64,000 nucleotides of DNA from assembly GCA_944390725.1 (NCBI GenBank), contig CALXQU010000001.1, positions 1 through 64,000 of the forward strand. The letters run 5' to 3'. Below the pieces are notes generated by a model. It saw nothing but the letters and a program-made list of their open reading frames with translations, did no database searches and had not been told where the DNA came from. The translations under genes and the position numbers were made by a program. The stretch comes from an uncultured Spirochaetaceae bacterium (GTDB lineage Bacteria; Spirochaetota; Spirochaetia; Sphaerochaetales; Sphaerochaetaceae). Positions 2,403 through 32,722 of the stretch are shown piece after piece. Numbering within the stretch: the stretch's first letter is position 1; every line of letters begins with the position of its first letter.

Positions 2403-2885
2403 TCACCCCTCGAACTGTTCCCAGATGCCGCTGTCGTCCCTGACGACCAGTACCTGGCACGGTACCGTACGCAGCATGCGGTCATTCTCGCTTGTCAGCT
2501 CATCACGCCTAGAGCGTATTGCATTGACAGGCCCTATTGCAAGCAGGTCTATGCCGTTCGCCTTCACGTAATCCTGTATGACGATATGGGGAGAGCCCTC
2601 TATCGCCTTGACGATGATGTCCTGGTCCTTGGAGGACGCGAGGCGCTCGGCATGCCTCAGGTGCCTTGCCGAATCCTTCTTCAGGTCCTCCAGGTACTCC
2701 CTCTTCTCCTGGTCGATGAATATGTGGGCGCGGACAAGCTCGCTGAGGGCCTTGGTATTGACCACATAGACAGCATGCAGCTCCGCGCCAGTGCTCTTGG
2801 CCAGGAGTATCGAATACATCAGAGCGCTTATCGACTCCTCGCTTCCATCGAGATAAGCGAGTATCTTCCTGAACGGGACCTTCAC
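2403..2885 (-). CDS. Universal stress protein (UspA family)
   Basis: A 160-residue single-domain UspA protein: N-terminal beta strand FRKILAYLDGSEESISAL, a central charged region, and a final strand VPCQVLVVRD. The canonical nucleotide-binding G-x2-G-x9-G(S/T) signature is not conserved (the segment reads GPVNAIRSRRDELTSEND), so ATP binding is doubtful. The gene overlaps subunit D of the V-ATPase by 4 bases and is followed 3 bases later by the EIIA gene, so all three are probably translated from one message. Its function here is unknown. Confidence 0.85.
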   Translation of the reverse strand: MKVPFRKILAYLDGSEESISALMYSILLAKSTGAELHAVYVVNTKALSELVRAHIFIDQEKREYLEDLKKDSARHLRHAERLASSKDQDIIVKAIEGSPHIVIQDYVKANGIDLLAIGPVNAIRSRRDELTSENDRMLRTVPCQVLVVRDDSGIWEQFEG

Positions 2886-3511
2886 TTGCCTGCCTCCCTT
2901 TCCATCCTATCCTTCACGGCCTTCATGAGGACGAAGTTCTCCCTCTCGGCCTCCTCGATCCTGCCTGTCAGGTACTTCACAGTCTCCATTCTATCAGGAA
3001 TCACGAGCTTTTCGAGCGAATTGACCTTCCTGATCGTCTTCTTGACCTCGCGGGCCAGCCTCATGATCGAGACCTTCAGCTCCGCCATCTGCCCCATCAG
3101 CGAGAGCGCATCGCTGAAGCGTGATACAGCGATTTCCGAGACCATGCTGATTCCCTCGGGGGAGAAGAACGGACCCTTGCCGGAGAACTCGGTCGCCACC
3201 TTAGGAAGCGAGACGCCCATGACCTTGCGCTGCGAGAGCGTTATCGATGACGATATGCTCACCGCCCCCGCAAGGTTGGCAACCCTGAGCCTGCCCATAT
3301 GCATGATGGCATCCTGGAGGCTCTCATCGGCATCGGCAAGCGCCTTCTCGACCCTGTTCTGGTAATCCACGGCCTGGTCGACGAGCGTAAGCAGCTCCGA
3401 TACCAGGATGGACCGCTTCTGGTCAAGAAGCTCATAGCCCGTCCTCGAGAAGGCAAGCTCGTTCTTGATCTTCATCAGGTTGCTTCTTGTAGGCGCTATC
3501 TGCACACTCAT
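2882..3511 (-). CDS. atpD: V-type ATPase subunit D
   Basis: A 209-residue subunit D of the V/A-type ATPase central stalk, the rotor shaft that turns inside the A3B3 head. The N-terminal APTRSNLMKIKNELAFSRTGYELLDQKR is diagnostic of the family. Both ends are long helices that would form the coiled coil. It lies 3 bases after the subunit B stop and overlaps the following Usp gene by 4 bases. The gene name follows bacterial V-ATPase usage (also ntpD) and is not the F-type beta subunit. Confidence 0.95.
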   Translation of the reverse strand: MSVQIAPTRSNLMKIKNELAFSRTGYELLDQKRSILVSELLTLVDQAVDYQNRVEKALADADESLQDAIMHMGRLRVANLAGAVSISSSITLSQRKVMGVSLPKVATEFSGKGPFFSPEGISMVSEIAVSRFSDALSLMGQMAELKVSIMRLAREVKKTIRKVNSLEKLVIPDRMETVKYLTGRIEEAERENFVLMKAVKDRMEREAGK

Positions 3512-25352: not shown

Positions 25353-26186
25353 ATGCTGGCCTGGCCTCCCCGCATAACGGGTGCCTGCAGTCCGCAGCGT
25401 CAATACCGAGATGCTTTCCCCTGCTGGGATATCAGGCGGCTGATAGCCGAGGATGAGCAGGAGAACCGGGAAAGGGCACAGTACGGAGAGCAGACCCTAA
25501 AGACTCTCTCAAAAAGACTTACGGCAGAGATCGGCAGTGGATTCTCAATGACTAATCTTTCTTTCATGAGGAGGTTTTACCTTGCATATCCAAAATTTCA
25601 GACGGTGTCTGAAAAATCGAGCTGGTCACACTACTGTGAGCTTCTCACTATCTCCGATGATAATAAGCGCTGCTTCTATGAGAAGGAATGCATTGCTTCA
25701 AAGTGGTCTGTCAGAGAATTGAAAAGGCAGCTTGATTCATCGCTGCATGGGCCTCTCCTTCTCTCCCGCGGAAAGGAGAATAAGGAAGAAGCGAAGCGGC
25801 CTGCGGAGAAAGGACAGGAGATAGAGAGGCCTGAGGATATCCTCAAATACCCTTATGCATTCGGGTTCGTGGGGCTGCCTGAGGGCAAGCCTGCGATGGA
25901 AGCTGACCTTGAGGATGCCCTGGCCAGCCATATCGAGAAGTTCCTCCTGGAGCTTGGCAAGGGATCCATGTCCGTCGGAAGGCAGCAGAGGATAACATCC
26001 GATAATGAGCATTGCTATGCTGATATGGTCTTCTACGGCAAGATCCTCAGGGCCTATGTGATAATCGGGCTAAAGACAAGGAAGCTTTTGCCTGCTGCTG
26101 CCGGACAGCTTAATATCTATCCCGATTGCTGCAAGGCTGAAGCCAATGATGCCGATGACAATGACCCTATCGGCATCATCCTCTAA
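25353..26186 (+). pseudogene. Decayed DUF1016/PDDEXK nuclease gene (YhcG type)
   Basis: A 277-codon frame similar to DUF1016 proteins. The N-terminal DUF1016 part is clear from about residue 25 (CWDIRRLIAEDEQ..., then GFSMTNLSFMRRFYLAYP, SSWSHYCELL and KWSVRELKRQL), and a PDDEXK part starts near residue 185 (ASHIEKFLLELGKGSMSVGRQQRIT). Three signs of decay: the expected residues before WDI (RSVNTEMLS) are in the neighbouring frame around 25395-25420, implying a frameshift; the catalytic ELK reads GLK at residue 239 (one base, GAG to GGG); and a stop cuts the protein right after DPIGIIL, where intact relatives continue. Base composition is lower in GC than the neighbours. Confidence 0.75.
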
Positions 26187-26299: not shown

Positions 26300-27487
26300 C
26301 TACAGATTTAATGCAAGCACAATTGCAGCCATAAACGACAGCATGCCACCGAATGCGAATGGTGCGAACGCGCCGATGCCATCCCATAGCAGACCTGCGA
26401 TTACGCTTGCTGGAAGCAAGGCAATCCCCGCCAGAGTGGATTGCAGGCCGAGCATTGTGCCCTTAAGCTGCGGAGGTGCGATCTCTGCGATAAGTGCCCG
26501 TTCCGCCCCTGTGGTCATCGCCGTATAAATACCGTAGATCACGAAAACCAAAACCATAAACGGCTTGGAGTTGCAGAAGGCAAATCCGAAATATACAAGC
26601 GAGAAGGTGATGTATCCGCTCACGAGCAGCCGCTTTCTTCCGATTTTATCAGAGAGCTTGCCGCAAGGAATCGCCAATAGGGATGCAGACAGGTTGTAGA
26701 TAAAGTAAAGCAGTATCGTAGCACTGCTGTCGAACCCTATATCCGAAGCTCGGAGGAGCAGGAAGCTATTCGAGGAGTTCCCGAGCGTAAATAGAAAGGT
26801 AATGGCAAGATAGAGCTTGAGCCTGCCATCCAGCTGAGAGATATTCTTCCAGAAATGTTCCCGTTGTACGATTTCCCTTTTCCCCTTCTTCTCATGAACC
26901 AGCAGGAACAACAGGAGCGCGATTATTATCGGGATAGCGGAAACAGCGAATATCATTCTGTATCCATTTGCGTCTGCACCGATATCCTTCAGAAGAAGGA
27001 ATGCCATAAGGATTCCGATAGCTGACCCTGCCATATCGAGCATCTTATGGATGCCGAAAGCCCTGCCTATGCTGTTCTTGCCTGCGCTTTCAGAGACCAT
27101 TACATCTCTTGGCGCAGTCCGGATTCCCTTGCCGAACCGGTCAATCACCCTTGCTAACAAGATCCCGCCCCAGGATCCAGCGAATATAAGAGCTGCCTTA
27201 TAGAGCAGTCCTGTTGCATATCCACAGAATGCGATTGCCTTCTTGTGCTGGAATCTGTCGCTTATATATCCGCTGAACACCTTCAGGAGACTGGCCACGC
27301 TTTCCGCGATCCCCTCGATGATTCCAACGAGCACCGGAGTCGCTCCGAATACCGCTGTCAAGTACAGTGGAATCAATGGATATACCATCTCGCTGGATAT
27401 ATCCGCAAAACAGCTTATCAAGCCGAGTATGATGACATTCCGGGTTCCCTTTGCAACACTGGCCCTGCTTTTTTCATCATCTTCCAT
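26300..27487 (-). CDS. MFS exporter, MarR-linked
   Basis: A 395-residue major facilitator with about twelve helices. N-terminal NVIILGLISCFADISSEMVYPLIPLYL and the motif GKGIRTAPRDVMVSES are typical of a bacterial MFS group annotated as multidrug or unknown transporters. Codon use is visibly more AT-rich than in the surrounding genome. The ATG at 27487 has AAGGA seven bases upstream; a TTG five codons earlier is less likely. Its start is five bases after the MarR stop, so the pair is an operon and the MarR ligand is probably its substrate. Confidence 0.85.
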   Translation of the reverse strand: MEDDEKSRASVAKGTRNVIILGLISCFADISSEMVYPLIPLYLTAVFGATPVLVGIIEGIAESVASLLKVFSGYISDRFQHKKAIAFCGYATGLLYKAALIFAGSWGGILLARVIDRFGKGIRTAPRDVMVSESAGKNSIGRAFGIHKMLDMAGSAIGILMAFLLLKDIGADANGYRMIFAVSAIPIIIALLLFLLVHEKKGKREIVQREHFWKNISQLDGRLKLYLAITFLFTLGNSSNSFLLLRASDIGFDSSATILLYFIYNLSASLLAIPCGKLSDKIGRKRLLVSGYITFSLVYFGFAFCNSKPFMVLVFVIYGIYTAMTTGAERALIAEIAPPQLKGTMLGLQSTLAGIALLPASVIAGLLWDGIGAFAPFAFGGMLSFMAAIVLALNL

Positions 27488-27491
27488 CTTC

Positions 27492-27950
27492 TTATCCTTC
27501 AATCAGTTTTCTCACGTCTGGAAACCCTGAGCGGGACTGCTGCTTTGACCGTACATACAGGCCATTCAGAATCCGGCAGAATCCAGCCCTTTCTTCTTCA
27601 GGCAGCTCAGATAACAGCCATCCATAGAAAGCCTGCTCGATTGAGACTTTGGAATTCCGGAGATTCTCAGCCTTTTCAGTTGCATATAGAAGCTTGCTGC
27701 GGCCATCGGCAGGATTATCCTTGCGGACAAGGTATCCCTTCGCTTCCAGGCTGGCAGCTTGCCGGGCGGCTGCACCTTTGTCGATTTTCAATTCCGCCCT
27801 GATCTGTGCCTGTGTCATGCCAGGGTGATGGCGCAGCAGATGGATGAAATCGAATTCCGCTGTCCCGATACCATCAGCTTTCATTACCTGTACCGTGAGC
27901 CTGCTGGCTTCACGGGCGATTTTCGTGATCTGTCGTTTGCTTTGATCCAT
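27492..27950 (-). CDS. MarR-family transcriptional regulator
   Basis: A 152-residue winged-helix regulator: LLRHHPGMTQAQIRAELKIDKGAAARQAASLEAKGYLVRKDNPADGRSKLLYATEKA is the DNA-binding domain, flanked by dimerisation helices. The ATG at 27950 has GAAGG five bases upstream; the longer upstream frame crosses the operator and is rejected. It is followed by an MFS exporter and preceded by a perfect inverted repeat. Probably autorepresses and derepresses the exporter on ligand binding. Confidence 0.88.
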   Translation of the reverse strand: MDQSKRQITKIAREASRLTVQVMKADGIGTAEFDFIHLLRHHPGMTQAQIRAELKIDKGAAARQAASLEAKGYLVRKDNPADGRSKLLYATEKAENLRNSKVSIEQAFYGWLLSELPEEERAGFCRILNGLYVRSKQQSRSGFPDVRKLIEG

Positions 27951-27966
27951 ATATGCCTTCGAATTG

Positions 27967-28000
27967 GATGCAGTATCAACCAAATAGTTGATACTGCATC
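27967..28000 (-). promoter_or_regulatory. Perfect inverted-repeat operator of the MarR-MFS operon
   Basis: Arms GATGCAGTATCAAC (27967-27980) and GTTGATACTGCATC (27987-28000) are exact reverse complements separated by 6 bases. The repeat covers the -10 and the transcription start of the MarR gene, 17 bases upstream of its ATG. Confidence 0.85.
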
Positions 28001-28016
28001 TTTCTGATTTTATCAA
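27988..28016 (-). promoter_or_regulatory. Promoter of the MarR-MFS operon
   Basis: Minus-strand -35 TTGATA (28011-28016), 17-base spacer, -10 TATCAA (27988-27993). The -10 lies inside the right arm of the operator, so a bound repressor would block RNA polymerase. Confidence 0.6.
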
Positions 28017-28059
28017 GCCTCGTCTCAAGCTTTTGCCTGACCAGTCCGATACGGATGCG

Positions 28060-28400
28060 TCGCCCCCAGACGTTTCGCGATGGAATACCTTGGTCCTCTG
28101 GATCAGATATCCAGCATTTCGGTATAACCGCATCCTGCTGCTGAACAGCAATACCTGCCATATGTGGCGATAATGATGTGAAGATGTCCCAGAAGATCCA
28201 TGTCCTGTACCTTCATCCCTTGTTTTCCATGCCGATACATTGCACTGCCGCATATTGGACATCCCTCTGGTCTTTTGGGGCTGTACCGATCCCTCCTGTG
28301 ATATAGATATCCTTCCCTGTCTTTGTTGTTACAGGTCCTGGTTCTGCCGTGACAGGAAAGCATGACAGTTCATGCCGTATTGTGATATTCCCGTTCACGG
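28060..28400 (-). mobile_element. Transposase remnant, ISL3-like zinc-ribbon N-terminus
   Basis: The minus strand encodes GCPICGSAMYRHGKQGMK...DLLGHLHI...YGRYCCSAAGCGYTEMLDI, i.e. a CxxC...C...C zinc ribbon followed by the strand pattern seen at the N-terminus of ISL3-family transposases. The frame meets a stop straight after, and no catalytic domain or terminal inverted repeats can be seen. Frame changes upstream also suggest decay. Family assignment is from the pattern only. Confidence 0.45.
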
Positions 28401-28660
28401 GGATGCTCGTCCTGTCGATTTGTCCTTGCTTTTTTTCAAATCTTAAGGGATCTCATACCTCTTCTGTTGCTTTGCTGTTGTCCTGGTCCCACGGCTTTCT
28501 GTATAGAGCCATATGCATTGGGATAGGTTGAAAGCAGGATCTTCGCTTCAGGATATGTCCTCTATCTCCCTGGGAAGGAAGCCCTGGAAGAGGAAGCGCA
28601 GGCATTCATCGAAGGCGGGGAAGGGAGGCCTCCCCGCTGCCTTGCCGCGGACCATGGGAA
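28401..28660. other. Non-coding or decayed stretch
   Basis: No gene supported on either strand. It contains a GCGGGGA/TCCCCGC inverted repeat near 28617-28640 and probably more debris from the adjacent transposase. Confidence 0.4.
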
Positions 28661-28682
28661 GATGGCGGGCCACCCCGCCATC
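28661..28682 (-). terminator. Terminator of the ABC exporter operon
   Basis: GATGGCGGG pairs with CCCGCCATC (9 bp, 4-base loop), two bases after the stop codon of the ABC gene; the minus strand continues TTCCC. Confidence 0.65.
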
Positions 28683-28684
28683 CG

Positions 28685-30586
28685 TCATTCAAGCTCGGTC
28701 TCGCCTGTGCAGAGCCTGTAGTAGGTCCCTTTCTGGGCCATGAGGTCATCATGGTCGCCGCGCTCGATTATCCTTCCATGGTCGAGGACCATGATCGCAT
28801 TGGAGTTGCGCACCGTCGAGAGCCTATGGGCGATTACGAAGACCGTCCTGTTCGCCATCAGCTTGTCCATGCCGTCCTGCACGAGGCGCTCAGTATAGGT
28901 ATCGATGGAGCTGGTGGCCTCATCCATGACGAGGACGGGAGGGTCCGCCACGGCGGCCCTGGCGATGGACAGCAGCTGGCGCTGCCCCTGCGAGAGGTTC
29001 TCCCCGTTGTTCTCCAGCATCGTATCATAGCCATCAGGCATCATCATGATGAAGTCATGGGCATTGGCGAGGCGTGCCGCCTTCTCTATCTCCTCATCTG
29101 TCGCATCGAGCTTGCCGAACCTGATATTGTCCCGGATGGTGCCGGTAAAGAGGCTCGTATCCTGCAGTATCATGCCGAGAGACCTCCGGAGGTCAGACTT
29201 CCTTATCTTGTTGATATTGATGCCATCGAAGCGGATCTTGCCGTCCTGGATATCATAGAAGCGGTTGAGAAGGTTCGTAATCGTCGTCTTGCCTGCGCCC
29301 GTCGAGCCGACGAAGGCGATCTTCTGCCCCGGCTTCGCATACAGCGAGATATCATGGAGGACGATCTTGTCAGGCAGGTAGCCGAAATCAACGTCCTGCA
29401 TCACGATATCGCCGCGGAGCGGTGTGTACGTGATGGGGCTGCCGTCATGGTGCGGATGCTTCCATGCCCACTGCCCGGTATGCTCATCGGTCTCGACGGT
29501 ATTGCCATCAGCATCCGTCTTCGAGTTGACGAGCATCACGTAGCCGTTGTCCGTCTCGCTCTCCTGGTCCAGCAGGTCGAATATCCTCTCCGCGCCGGCG
29601 AGGGCCTGGAGCATGATGTTGGACTGCTGCGCGATCTGGTTGATGTTGTTCGAGAACGACCTCGAGAGCTGGAGGAACGCCGCCAGCGTGCCGATCGTAT
29701 AGCCCGATGTGGGGCCGCCTGTGGAGATGGCGATGATAGCTCCGATGATGACAAGGGCGACATACTGCAGATTACCGATGTTCATCGTCACAGGCCCCAT
29801 GATGTTGGCCAGTGTATTGGCGACGGACATCTGCTCGAAGAGATCCTCGTTGATCTTATCGAAATCCTCCTGGCTGGCCTCCTCATGGGTGAAGACCTTT
29901 ATCACGCGCTGCCCGTTCATCATCTCCTCGATGAAGCCGTTGACAGCGCCGAGCGCTGCCTGCTGCGAGGCATAGCGCGTCCTGGACTTCCTCGTGATGA
30001 AGCCAGATGACCTGATGGTCAGGAACGCGAACACGGCCACTACCGCGGTGAGCACCACGCTGTTCGCCAGCATCGAGATGACAAGCATCAGCAGCGTGAT
30101 GCCTGACTGCATGACAATCACCAGCGAGTTGGAGATGAGCTGGTTGAGCGTATCGGTATCGTTCGAGAAGCGCGACATGATATTGCCGTGGGCATTCCTG
30201 TCGAAATAGGAAAGCGGCAGCGATTCCAGCTTCCTGAACATCTGCACGCGGATGCGGAAGAGCGTATCCTGGCTGACATTGACCATTATGCGGCTGAGGA
30301 TATACGTGAATGCGACAGAGACCAGGATCACGCATCCGTATCCTGCCAGCGCCCTCACGATAGGCCCGAAGTCGGGATCCTCGACGCCGATGATCGGCAC
30401 GATATAGGAATCGACGAGCGTTCCCAGGAACGATGCCGAGAACACGATCGCGATGGATGATACTATTATGCAGAGGAGAATCACCGCGAAGTGGCCCTTC
30501 CTGTCGCCGAACGTGATGGAGAGAAGGCGCCTGAGCGCTTTCATCGGATCCTTGGCTGCCGTGCCTGCCTTCTGTGCCCTAAGCAT
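28685..30586 (-). CDS. ABC exporter half-transporter, catalytic partner
   Basis: A 633-residue fusion of a six-helix exporter membrane domain and an ABC ATPase. Walker A is GSTGAGKT, the signature is NLSQGQRQ, and Walker B MDEATSSID keeps the catalytic glutamate (E556). Before the ATPase there is an insert of about 35 residues (SKTDADGNTVETDEHTGQ...). The start is the ATG at 30586 with AGGAGG upstream, overlapping the previous gene by 8 bases. With that gene it should form a heterodimeric exporter like TM287/288 or LmrCD, moving drugs or lipids out of the cell. Confidence 0.92.
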   Translation of the reverse strand: MLRAQKAGTAAKDPMKALRRLLSITFGDRKGHFAVILLCIIVSSIAIVFSASFLGTLVDSYIVPIIGVEDPDFGPIVRALAGYGCVILVSVAFTYILSRIMVNVSQDTLFRIRVQMFRKLESLPLSYFDRNAHGNIMSRFSNDTDTLNQLISNSLVIVMQSGITLLMLVISMLANSVVLTAVVAVFAFLTIRSSGFITRKSRTRYASQQAALGAVNGFIEEMMNGQRVIKVFTHEEASQEDFDKINEDLFEQMSVANTLANIMGPVTMNIGNLQYVALVIIGAIIAISTGGPTSGYTIGTLAAFLQLSRSFSNNINQIAQQSNIMLQALAGAERIFDLLDQESETDNGYVMLVNSKTDADGNTVETDEHTGQWAWKHPHHDGSPITYTPLRGDIVMQDVDFGYLPDKIVLHDISLYAKPGQKIAFVGSTGAGKTTITNLLNRFYDIQDGKIRFDGININKIRKSDLRRSLGMILQDTSLFTGTIRDNIRFGKLDATDEEIEKAARLANAHDFIMMMPDGYDTMLENNGENLSQGQRQLLSIARAAVADPPVLVMDEATSSIDTYTERLVQDGMDKLMANRTVFVIAHRLSTVRNSNAIMVLDHGRIIERGDHDDLMAQKGTYYRLCTGETELE

Positions 30587-32303
30587 TCTTCCTGCCTCCT
30601 TCCTGCATCTCGTACAGCTGCCTGTACTCCGCATTGCGCTCCATCAGCTCCGCATGGGTGCCCCTGTCCACGATGCGTCCGCCGCTCATCATGAATATCT
30701 GGTCGGCATCCATTATCGAGGAGAGCCTCTGGCTGATGATGATCTTCGTCAGATGCTGGACATCCTCCCTCAGCGCGCGCCTTATCTGCGCGTCCGTAGC
30801 AGTATCGACCGCGGATGTCGAGTCATCGAGGATGAGTATCCTCGGATCCTTCAGCAGCGCCCTGGCGATGCAGAGCCTCTGGCGCTGGCCGCCGGAGAAG
30901 TTGGTGCCTCCCTGGTCCACATGGCTATCGAAGCCATCCTTCATCGATGAGATGAACGGCGTCACCGATGCGATGTCCGAGGCCTTCCTGATAGCCTCAT
31001 CTGATGCATCGGGATTGCCCCAGCGCAGGTTCTCGGCGACGGTGCCGGTGAAGAGCGTGTTCTTCTGCAGCACGACCGAGACATTGTCGCGCAGCGCCTT
31101 GAGGCTGTAGCTGCGGACATCCCTGCCCCCGACCTTCACCGTGCCTGACTTGGCGTCATAGAGCCTCGCGATAAGCGAGATCAGCGTGGTCTTCCCGGAG
31201 CCTGTCGGGCCGAGTATGCCGATCATCTGGCCGCTCTCAATCCGCAGGCTTATATCATCGAGGACCACGGAATCCCTGCCGTACCCGAAGGAGACATGGT
31301 CGAACTCTATCGAACCGTCGGCGACCTCCTTCTCCCCTTCCGGATTCGGGTCCATCGAAGGCTCGGAGGAAAGCACCTCCGCGATCCTCTGCATCGAGGC
31401 CCAGGAGATGGACATCATGACGATGACCATGCCGACCATCAGGAGCGATGAGAGGATCTGGAACGTGTAGGTATAGATGGAAAGCAGCTCGCCTGTCTGC
31501 AGCTGCCCTATATTGATGTATCTGGCCCCCAGGTATGAGAGCGCGATGATGCATGCGAACGTGACTGACATCATTATGGGGCTGGTGAATGCCATTATCC
31601 TCTGGCCCTTCTTGAAGTTATCGCGGATGACAGCCGCGGAGTCATTGAATATGGCCTGCTGCTGGTCCTCCCTGACATAGGCCTTGACGGTACGTATGCC
31701 GCCCAGGTTCTCCTGGACGACCCTGTTGAATACATCGTAGCCCTTGAATGCCTTGGTGAAGTACGTGTGCGTCCTGCTGAATATGAGATAGATGCCGCAG
31801 GCGAGCACCGGGATGGCCACTGCGAACACGAGCGAGAGCGCGCCACCGTTATGCCATACCATGATCATGGCGAAGATGAACATGATGGGGGCCCTGACGC
31901 AGATGCGGATCATCATCTGAAACGACATCTGCACGTTCTGCACATCGGTCGTCATCCTCGTGATCAGCGATGGCGTGGAGAACCTGTCGATATCGGCGAA
32001 GGAGAACGACATGACCTTGGCGTATTCATCATGCCTGATGTTCTTGGCGAATCCTGATGAGGCCTTGGATGCGCTCCAGGCACCCAGCATGCCGAACGAG
32101 AGCGAAAGCATCGCAGCCGCCACGAGCATGATGCTGACGCGCCTGACGACATCCATATCCGTATTGCTTATGCCCGCATCGACCACGTAGGCCATCAGCG
32201 TAGGGATAAGGACCTCCATCGCCACCTCACCTACCATGAAAAGCGGGGTTATCGCGGCATACTTCCAGTATTCCCTTACCCTGGAAAGAAGTATCTTCAG
32301 CAT
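30579..32303 (-). CDS. ABC exporter half-transporter, degenerate-site partner
   Basis: A 574-residue half-transporter: membrane domain (about residues 1-310), then ATPase with Walker A GPTGSGKT, signature FSGGQRQR and Walker B ILILDDSTSAVD. The residue after Walker B is aspartate (D494) instead of glutamate, the hallmark of the non-catalytic site in heterodimeric exporters. The gene overlaps the MarR gene by 7 bases upstream and its partner by 8 bases downstream. Confidence 0.92.
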   Translation of the reverse strand: MLKILLSRVREYWKYAAITPLFMVGEVAMEVLIPTLMAYVVDAGISNTDMDVVRRVSIMLVAAAMLSLSFGMLGAWSASKASSGFAKNIRHDEYAKVMSFSFADIDRFSTPSLITRMTTDVQNVQMSFQMMIRICVRAPIMFIFAMIMVWHNGGALSLVFAVAIPVLACGIYLIFSRTHTYFTKAFKGYDVFNRVVQENLGGIRTVKAYVREDQQQAIFNDSAAVIRDNFKKGQRIMAFTSPIMMSVTFACIIALSYLGARYINIGQLQTGELLSIYTYTFQILSSLLMVGMVIVMMSISWASMQRIAEVLSSEPSMDPNPEGEKEVADGSIEFDHVSFGYGRDSVVLDDISLRIESGQMIGILGPTGSGKTTLISLIARLYDAKSGTVKVGGRDVRSYSLKALRDNVSVVLQKNTLFTGTVAENLRWGNPDASDEAIRKASDIASVTPFISSMKDGFDSHVDQGGTNFSGGQRQRLCIARALLKDPRILILDDSTSAVDTATDAQIRRALREDVQHLTKIIISQRLSSIMDADQIFMMSGGRIVDRGTHAELMERNAEYRQLYEMQEGGRKNA

Positions 32304-32722
32304 AGCTCCTCCTCATACAGTCCGATCAGCTTCTCGCCGATCCGGGAGAATTCCTCTATCTCATCCTCAGTCAGCGCATCGGCGATCCGCTCATCAAGCT
32401 TCCTTATGCCGCCGATGGCATGCGAGAACAGGTCCCTGCCCTTATCGGAAAGGGTCAGTATCCACTGCCTCCTGTCGTTTTCGCTCGCGGCAGCCTCTAC
32501 CAGGCCTTCAGCCATCAGGCGGCTGACGAGCCCGGAGACAGTCGCCCTCGTCATCCTGAACTCCTCCTGGAGATCCTTATGGGAGACAGGGCCTTTCTCC
32601 ATCATGTAGCCGATGAACCTGAACTCCGATGTGCGGAGCCCATATCCGGCAAGGTTCCTGTCGAAGAGCCTCGCCGCCAGCCTGGCCAGCTTGCCTATCG
32701 TCAATGATACCGGTTCATTCAT
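32297..32722 (-). CDS. MarR-family regulator of the ABC exporter
   Basis: A 141-residue winged-helix protein: MMEKGPVSHKDLQEEFRMTRATVSGLVSRLMAEGLVEAAASENDRRQWILTLSDKG carries the helix-turn-helix and wing. It is the first gene of a three-gene operon with the exporter pair, and an inverted repeat overlaps its start codon. Likely a ligand-released repressor of the exporter. Confidence 0.88.
   Translation of the reverse strand: MNEPVSLTIGKLARLAARLFDRNLAGYGLRTSEFRFIGYMMEKGPVSHKDLQEEFRMTRATVSGLVSRLMAEGLVEAAASENDRRQWILTLSDKGRDLFSHAIGGIRKLDERIADALTEDEIEEFSRIGEKLIGLYEEELC

Follow-up and report, generated by a model that had tools for sequence, protein, structure and literature searches.

A candidate two-box operator overlapping the promoter of a MarR-MFS transporter operon in an uncultured Spirochaetaceae bacterium

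The marR locus and its inverted repeat

The window, the 64,000-nucleotide stretch of DNA analysed here, contains on its minus strand a gene for a MarR-family regulator that is directly followed by a gene for an MFS transporter (Table 1). The transporter start lies 4 nt past the marR stop if the ATG at 27487 is used, or overlaps that stop if translation begins at the TTG at 27502. This layout agrees with the MarR-exporter operon proposed in the initial annotation. That the transporter works as an exporter is a guess from its family, and its co-transcription with marR is something we infer. For marR, the ATG at 27950 is the best start because the alignments of homologues begin there or a few residues later, and they give no support to a longer reading of 256 aa, extending to 28262, that appears in the list of open reading frames.

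Table 1. Features of the marR-transporter locus (positions in the window)
Feature	Position	Strand	Remarks
-35 hexamer TTGATA (presumed)	28011..28016	-	14/28 homologues have TTGA, then 16 or 17 nt, then the -10
-10 hexamer TATCAA (presumed)	27988..27993	-	17-nt spacing to the -35; the 14 homologues that share the promoter read TATCAT here
Perfect inverted repeat, presumed marR operator	27967..28000	-	14+14 arms, 6-nt spacer; unique in its own assembly
Candidate operator box 1, promoter-proximal, GATGCAGTATCAAC	27987..28000	-	Holds the -10 hexamer; fits GWTGN6CAWC at 8/8 fixed positions; placed alike in 14/28 homologues
Candidate operator box 2, downstream, GTTGATACTGCATC	27967..27980	-	Over the presumed start region; equivalent box in 13/14 homologues with a matching promoter
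MarR-family repressor (predicted), 152 aa	27492..27950	-	ATG 27950; Pfam, homologue alignments, predicted fold
MFS transporter, 395 aa	26300..27487	-	ATG 27487 (TTG 27502 possible); Pfam MFS_1, E 8.6e-43

Sequence and predicted fold both assign the regulator to the MarR family. It matches the Pfam models MarR_2 (E 1e-14; 54.9 bits, cut-off 27) and MarR (E 1.1e-10; 41.7 bits, cut-off 24.6), and it scores below the cut-off of each of the named NCBIfam MarR equivalogs (BilQ, MarR, OhrR, FabT and MprA), the best being BilQ with 48 bits versus 125. In an AlphaFold2 monomer model (pLDDT 93.6, pTM 0.72), the elements follow the order of the MarR fold, with the wHTH flanked by the N- and C-terminal dimerisation helices. 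Foldseek comparison of this model with the PDB gave TM-scores by query length of 0.49-0.78 for the 50 matches listed, many of them with an rmsd of 5-7; we take all of these matches to be MarR-family proteins. The three highest scores among the 50 (0.75-0.78) belong to chains of Staphylococcus aureus MepR, which shares about 21% identity with the window protein. The solved proteins nearest in sequence are distant as well (best E 2.1e-9).

Upstream of marR, GATGCAGTATCAAC and its exact reverse complement pair at 14/14 positions, so that the inverted repeat of two 14-nt arms set 6 bases apart is present as first described, with 100% complementarity. Its nearness to marR was also correctly noted, but the distance had been given as 17 bases and is 16, counted between the repeat and the marR ATG (27950-27948). 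The repeat is the longest of all perfect inverted repeats with a loop of up to 20 nt in the window, the runner-up having 11-nt arms, and six dinucleotide-shuffled windows contained none with arms longer than 12. According to a passage in a review, palindromes in marR promoters often make the sites of MarR proteins easy to find (PMC5487221). The description of the site as unusually clear is fair locally, but by that passage the site would be a clean example of something common.

A search for the same palindrome elsewhere in the genome had been proposed as a check, and it was run on the assembly from which the window comes (2,082,071 bases, 84% complete). The exact palindrome pattern, the core pattern with up to three mismatches and the two-box pattern each matched once, always at the marR palindrome. 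A regulon of two-box sites in this genome was rejected, since the two-box pattern matches the marR site alone. When the inner bases of the two-box pattern were fixed as well, the assembly gave 0 matches; this narrower pattern is too strict and misses the known site too. A narrower single 16-mer, AGWTGNANNTNCAWCT, had 1 match in the assembly, at G000:C2:159600-159615, and the known site does not fit that pattern. Single GWTGN6CAWC boxes occur in the window at chance level (9 observed, 6.9 expected), and a single box alone therefore cannot predict targets.

Just upstream of the operon lies a frame of 86 aa (28103-28363, minus strand) that weakly matches an ISL3 transposase zinc ribbon and is perhaps the remnant of an insertion sequence.

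Conservation of the box and promoter in homologues

Two sets of MarR homologues were collected. One contig scan yielded 18 loci (L002-L019) with 54-74% identity, which to judge by record title come mostly from Lachnospiraceae, Oscillospiraceae/Ruminococcaceae and other Clostridia; L017 and L018 are Erysipelotrichaceae-type records, and L007 is filed as Bacteroides. In the window's own family, 65 of 139 genomes had MarR matches at E 0.001, and the second set consists of the 11 homologues besides the window with E <1e-15 (L021-L031), the weakest of which, L031, has 35% identity. Six of the own-family genomes with a MarR at this level, the window's included, belong to the window's genus. When 392 genomes were drawn from the phylum as a possible out-of-sample set, five had a match with E <1e-15, namely the window's own and four of the eleven already used, and the draw added no further homologue. 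Among 72,556 plasmid records there were 8 MarR matches, all below 45% identity and 80% coverage. Upstream DNA was available for 28 homologues, 17 from the contig scan and the 11 from the window's family; it was shorter than 250 nt at three loci (L007, L015 and L016). The box counts refer to these 28 homologues, a set apart from 18 weaker MarR loci (L032-L049).

The motif GWTGN6CAWC is present within 250 nt upstream of 26 of the 28 homologues, counted on the same sequences from which the consensus was read; in 300 shuffles the mean was 0.43 and the maximum 3. One of the two misses, L016, has 149 nt of upstream DNA, and the other, L026, carries GTTG-N7-CAAC instead. Two strict boxes were found in 10 of the 28 and are lacking as a pair in the other 18. 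The enumeration of dyads alone is free of the dependence on a consensus read from the same sequences. When all 4-mer dyads with spacers of 0-16 were counted in the last 200 nt, GATG-N6, GTTG-N6 and TGTA-N2 came out jointly on top, with 10/28 each, and the highest count for any dyad in 60 shuffle sets was 4. The TGTA-N2 dyad overlaps the same boxes as the other two.

Homologues also bear on the TTGATA-17-TATCAA promoter that had been placed under the repeat. Both hexamers and the 17-nt spacer were found on the minus strand, and the repeat covers the -10 and the presumed start. The consensus promoter scanner requires a T as the last base of the -10 and for that reason passed this promoter over. 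The presumed promoter leans instead on the sequences of the homologues, 14 of which have TTGANN-16/17-TATCAW (mean 0.075 and maximum 2 in 200 shuffles), with TATCAT as the -10 in every case; the element is absent from the other 14. If the 14-mer is placed by the -10 in the 14 homologues that have the promoter, it agrees with the box at 8/8 positions in 11 of them and at 7/8 in three (L004, L011 and L012). A second box follows downstream in 13 of these 14, the exception being L029, with a gap of 6-8 in 11 homologues and of 11-12 in two. At the level of sequence, the recurrence of the box upstream of marR homologues, and its position on the -10 in half of them, give strong though indirect support to the initial proposal that the regulator and the repeat form a cognate pair.

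Reading of the repeat as an operator

We consider it highly probable (roughly 0.87) that the repeat serves the MarR-MFS operon as its autoregulatory operator and consists of two 14-bp boxes, each for one MarR dimer. The two GWTG-N6-CAWC boxes would together make up the 34-bp palindrome, with 20 bp from centre to centre, or about two helical turns; at this spacing two dimers could sit on one face of the DNA. One dimer would lie on the -10 and the second on the start point and the early transcribed region, which would shut out RNA polymerase and keep both marR and the transporter gene low. A compound that binds MarR would release it from the DNA and allow expression of the operon, and the MFS transporter would export this compound or a related one. 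The sequence itself shows the site, the layout of the promoter, the gene order and the return of the boxes in front of marR homologues; binding, the presence of two dimers, repression, release by a ligand, the direction of export and the substrate are the parts of this model that we infer.

The initial annotation had treated the long perfect palindrome as the site. Its reading as an operator holds up well, but the mirror symmetry is not conserved, and two adjacent dimer boxes fit better. An unlikely competitor is one long dyad, in which one MarR dimer, or else one tetramer, is centred between the arms and contacts the inner half-sites TATCAAC-N6-GTTGATA. Mirror agreement between the boxes is 14/14 in the window, L006 and L009, 13/14 in L007 and 12/14 in L004, L018 and L019. 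The window's boxes taken singly are weak dyads (3/7 pairs; 2-6/7 in the 14 homologues that share the promoter), and the combination of weak single boxes with a perfect whole by itself favours the long dyad. Against this, agreement is perfect in just 2 of the 13 two-box homologues and falls to 7-11/14 in seven of them, and the gap between the boxes takes values of 6, 7, 8, 11 and 12, with N6 as the top spacing within both the GATG and the GTTG dyads. Moreover, two strict boxes occur in none of the 11 own-family homologues, and 10 of them carry exactly one. The variable gap, the N6 preference and the single-box homologues together point to the 14-bp box as the likely unit bound by a single dimer. 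Such a unit agrees with the statement, in a passage of a review, that MarR proteins bind palindromes as dimers, in consecutive major grooves (PMC5487221).

Far less probable is a role of the repeat as an RNA hairpin, either an intrinsic terminator on the plus strand or a structure in a 5'-UTR. The repeat folds as RNA on either strand, with a calculated energy of about -24 kcal/mol, and the plus-strand hairpin, with 6 G-C among 15 pairs and a broken T-tail, conforms to a loose terminator rule. However, the only plus-strand frames that end nearby (27245-27802 and 27759-28007, both candidate ORFs) are antisense to marR and the MFS gene, and the nearest plus-strand frame that matches a protein family stops at 26186. 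A marR transcript from the predicted start would contain one arm only, no Rfam match was found within 27400-28700, and in 7 of the 13 two-box homologues the two boxes are poor mirror images. We judged the terminator or hairpin reading unlikely, and gave even less credence to the repeat being the end of an ISL3-like remnant that came to lie at the promoter by accident. For such an origin speak the ISL3 zinc-ribbon fragment upstream (Pfam E 8e-5; 23.4 bits, below the required 25.5) and the distribution of the two genes within the genus, where MarR occurs at E <1e-15 in six genomes, the window's own among them, and the MFS transporter at E 1e-60 in the window's own only. It is opposed by the presence of like boxes at the promoters of marR homologues in many settings and by the single copy of the repeat in the assembly.

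The arrangement of two MarR boxes has a known counterpart. In Escherichia coli, as a passage of the cited source describes it, MarR acts on its own operon, marRAB, through two operator sites in marO, one in the core promoter and the other near the translation start (PMC3920692). In marO, site I lies between the -35 and the -10, whereas in the window the -10 itself falls within box 1 and 6 bp separate the two boxes; the window operon also encodes a transporter instead of MarA. The sequence of marO differs from that of the window's boxes. In mepRA of S. aureus a MarR-family repressor likewise precedes a transporter gene, but mepA encodes a MATE exporter and the window gene an MFS protein, and the MepR operator has another sequence. 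Closest to the window are the homologues of the contig scan from Clostridia and other groups: 13 of the 17 with upstream DNA have a two-box operator candidate on a TATCAT -10. They differ from the window in that 16 of the 18 loci have an ABC half-transporter downstream and not an MFS gene. Among the matches listed from the open literature at title and abstract level, nothing dealt with this operator or MarR subfamily; this is a weak result, as sequence words match poorly.

In type, the locus would be an ordinary bacterial switch, an autoregulated MarR-transporter operon of a known kind, with an unusually tidy candidate site. What the MarR subfamily gains is a clear and testable candidate operator, GWTG-N6-CAWC, often present twice and placed on a TATCAT -10. 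It would allow further two-box sites to be hunted and reporters to be built with which the ligand could be found. Use as a ligand sensor, as suggested in the initial annotation, is speculation.

Transporter partners and spread of the regulator

The partner genes of the MarR homologues were compared by taking as neighbour the first frame of at least 90 aa on the same strand that starts more than 250 nt past the marR start. By BLAST clustering, the neighbour is an ABC half-transporter at 18 of 29 loci (Pfam was run on L003, L006 and L030). An EamA protein follows at six loci, five of them clustered (Pfam on L024) and L028 assigned from reading its sequence, and an MFS transporter at three (L017, L022 and L029; Pfam on L022). 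The remaining neighbours are a PF04018 protein (L009) and a MATE-like protein (L031, judged by reading). The MFS transporter of the window itself recurs at one of the 29 loci, L017, where a gene 82% identical follows the MarR homologue. Four MFS homologues from other genera (L054-L057; 64-65% identity) lack an upstream box and have no own-family MarR match beside them; three of the four carry a single chance box within the MFS gene itself. The window's MFS transporter is therefore not tied to a MarR of this type.

At L009, where the MarR gene has a perfect mirror operator, the gene that comes next (2440-3345) is a PF04018 gene resembling an undecaprenyl-phosphate translocase, in place of an ABC or MFS transporter.

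Mapped on the MarR tree, the transporter label requires 7 changes, compared with a mean of 11.3 after shuffling, and none of 200 shuffles was as low. By this measure the label is clustered on the sequence tree, and not in single clades. The tree is too poorly resolved for partner swaps to be counted, with 3 of 27 inner branches starred among 30 rows and the window row placed without support, and a swap of regulators between transporters is not proved by it. The closest MarR found is that of Oscillibacter sp. PC13 (73% identity), and the best within the window's genus has 53%. With the closest relative outside the genus, the sequences suggest that MarR moved between lineages, of which the tree gives no proof. 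As a tentative idea, which we hold to be rather less probable than its negation, MarR with its -10-embedded and usually two-box operator might form a portable cassette that was repeatedly paired with unrelated transporters (ABC half-transporters, EamA, MFS and PF04018) in Clostridia and in the window's family, possibly because they all respond to one shared compound.

The MarR of L007, a record filed as uncultured Bacteroides, pairs in the tree with that of L014 from Lachnospira (support 88/85, not starred), and the L007 contig is possibly misbinned.

The window holds a second MarR set on the minus strand (28685-32722), in which a MarR-family regulator gene (32297-32722) precedes overlapping genes for ABC half-transporters (30579-32303 and 28685-30634); the 240 nt upstream of this regulator contain no GWTGN6CAWC box. 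On the plus strand, 25353-26186 encodes a DUF1016/YhcG PDDEXK nuclease-like protein, which is possibly truncated; the match to its C-terminal domain stops at position 115 of the 157 in the profile.
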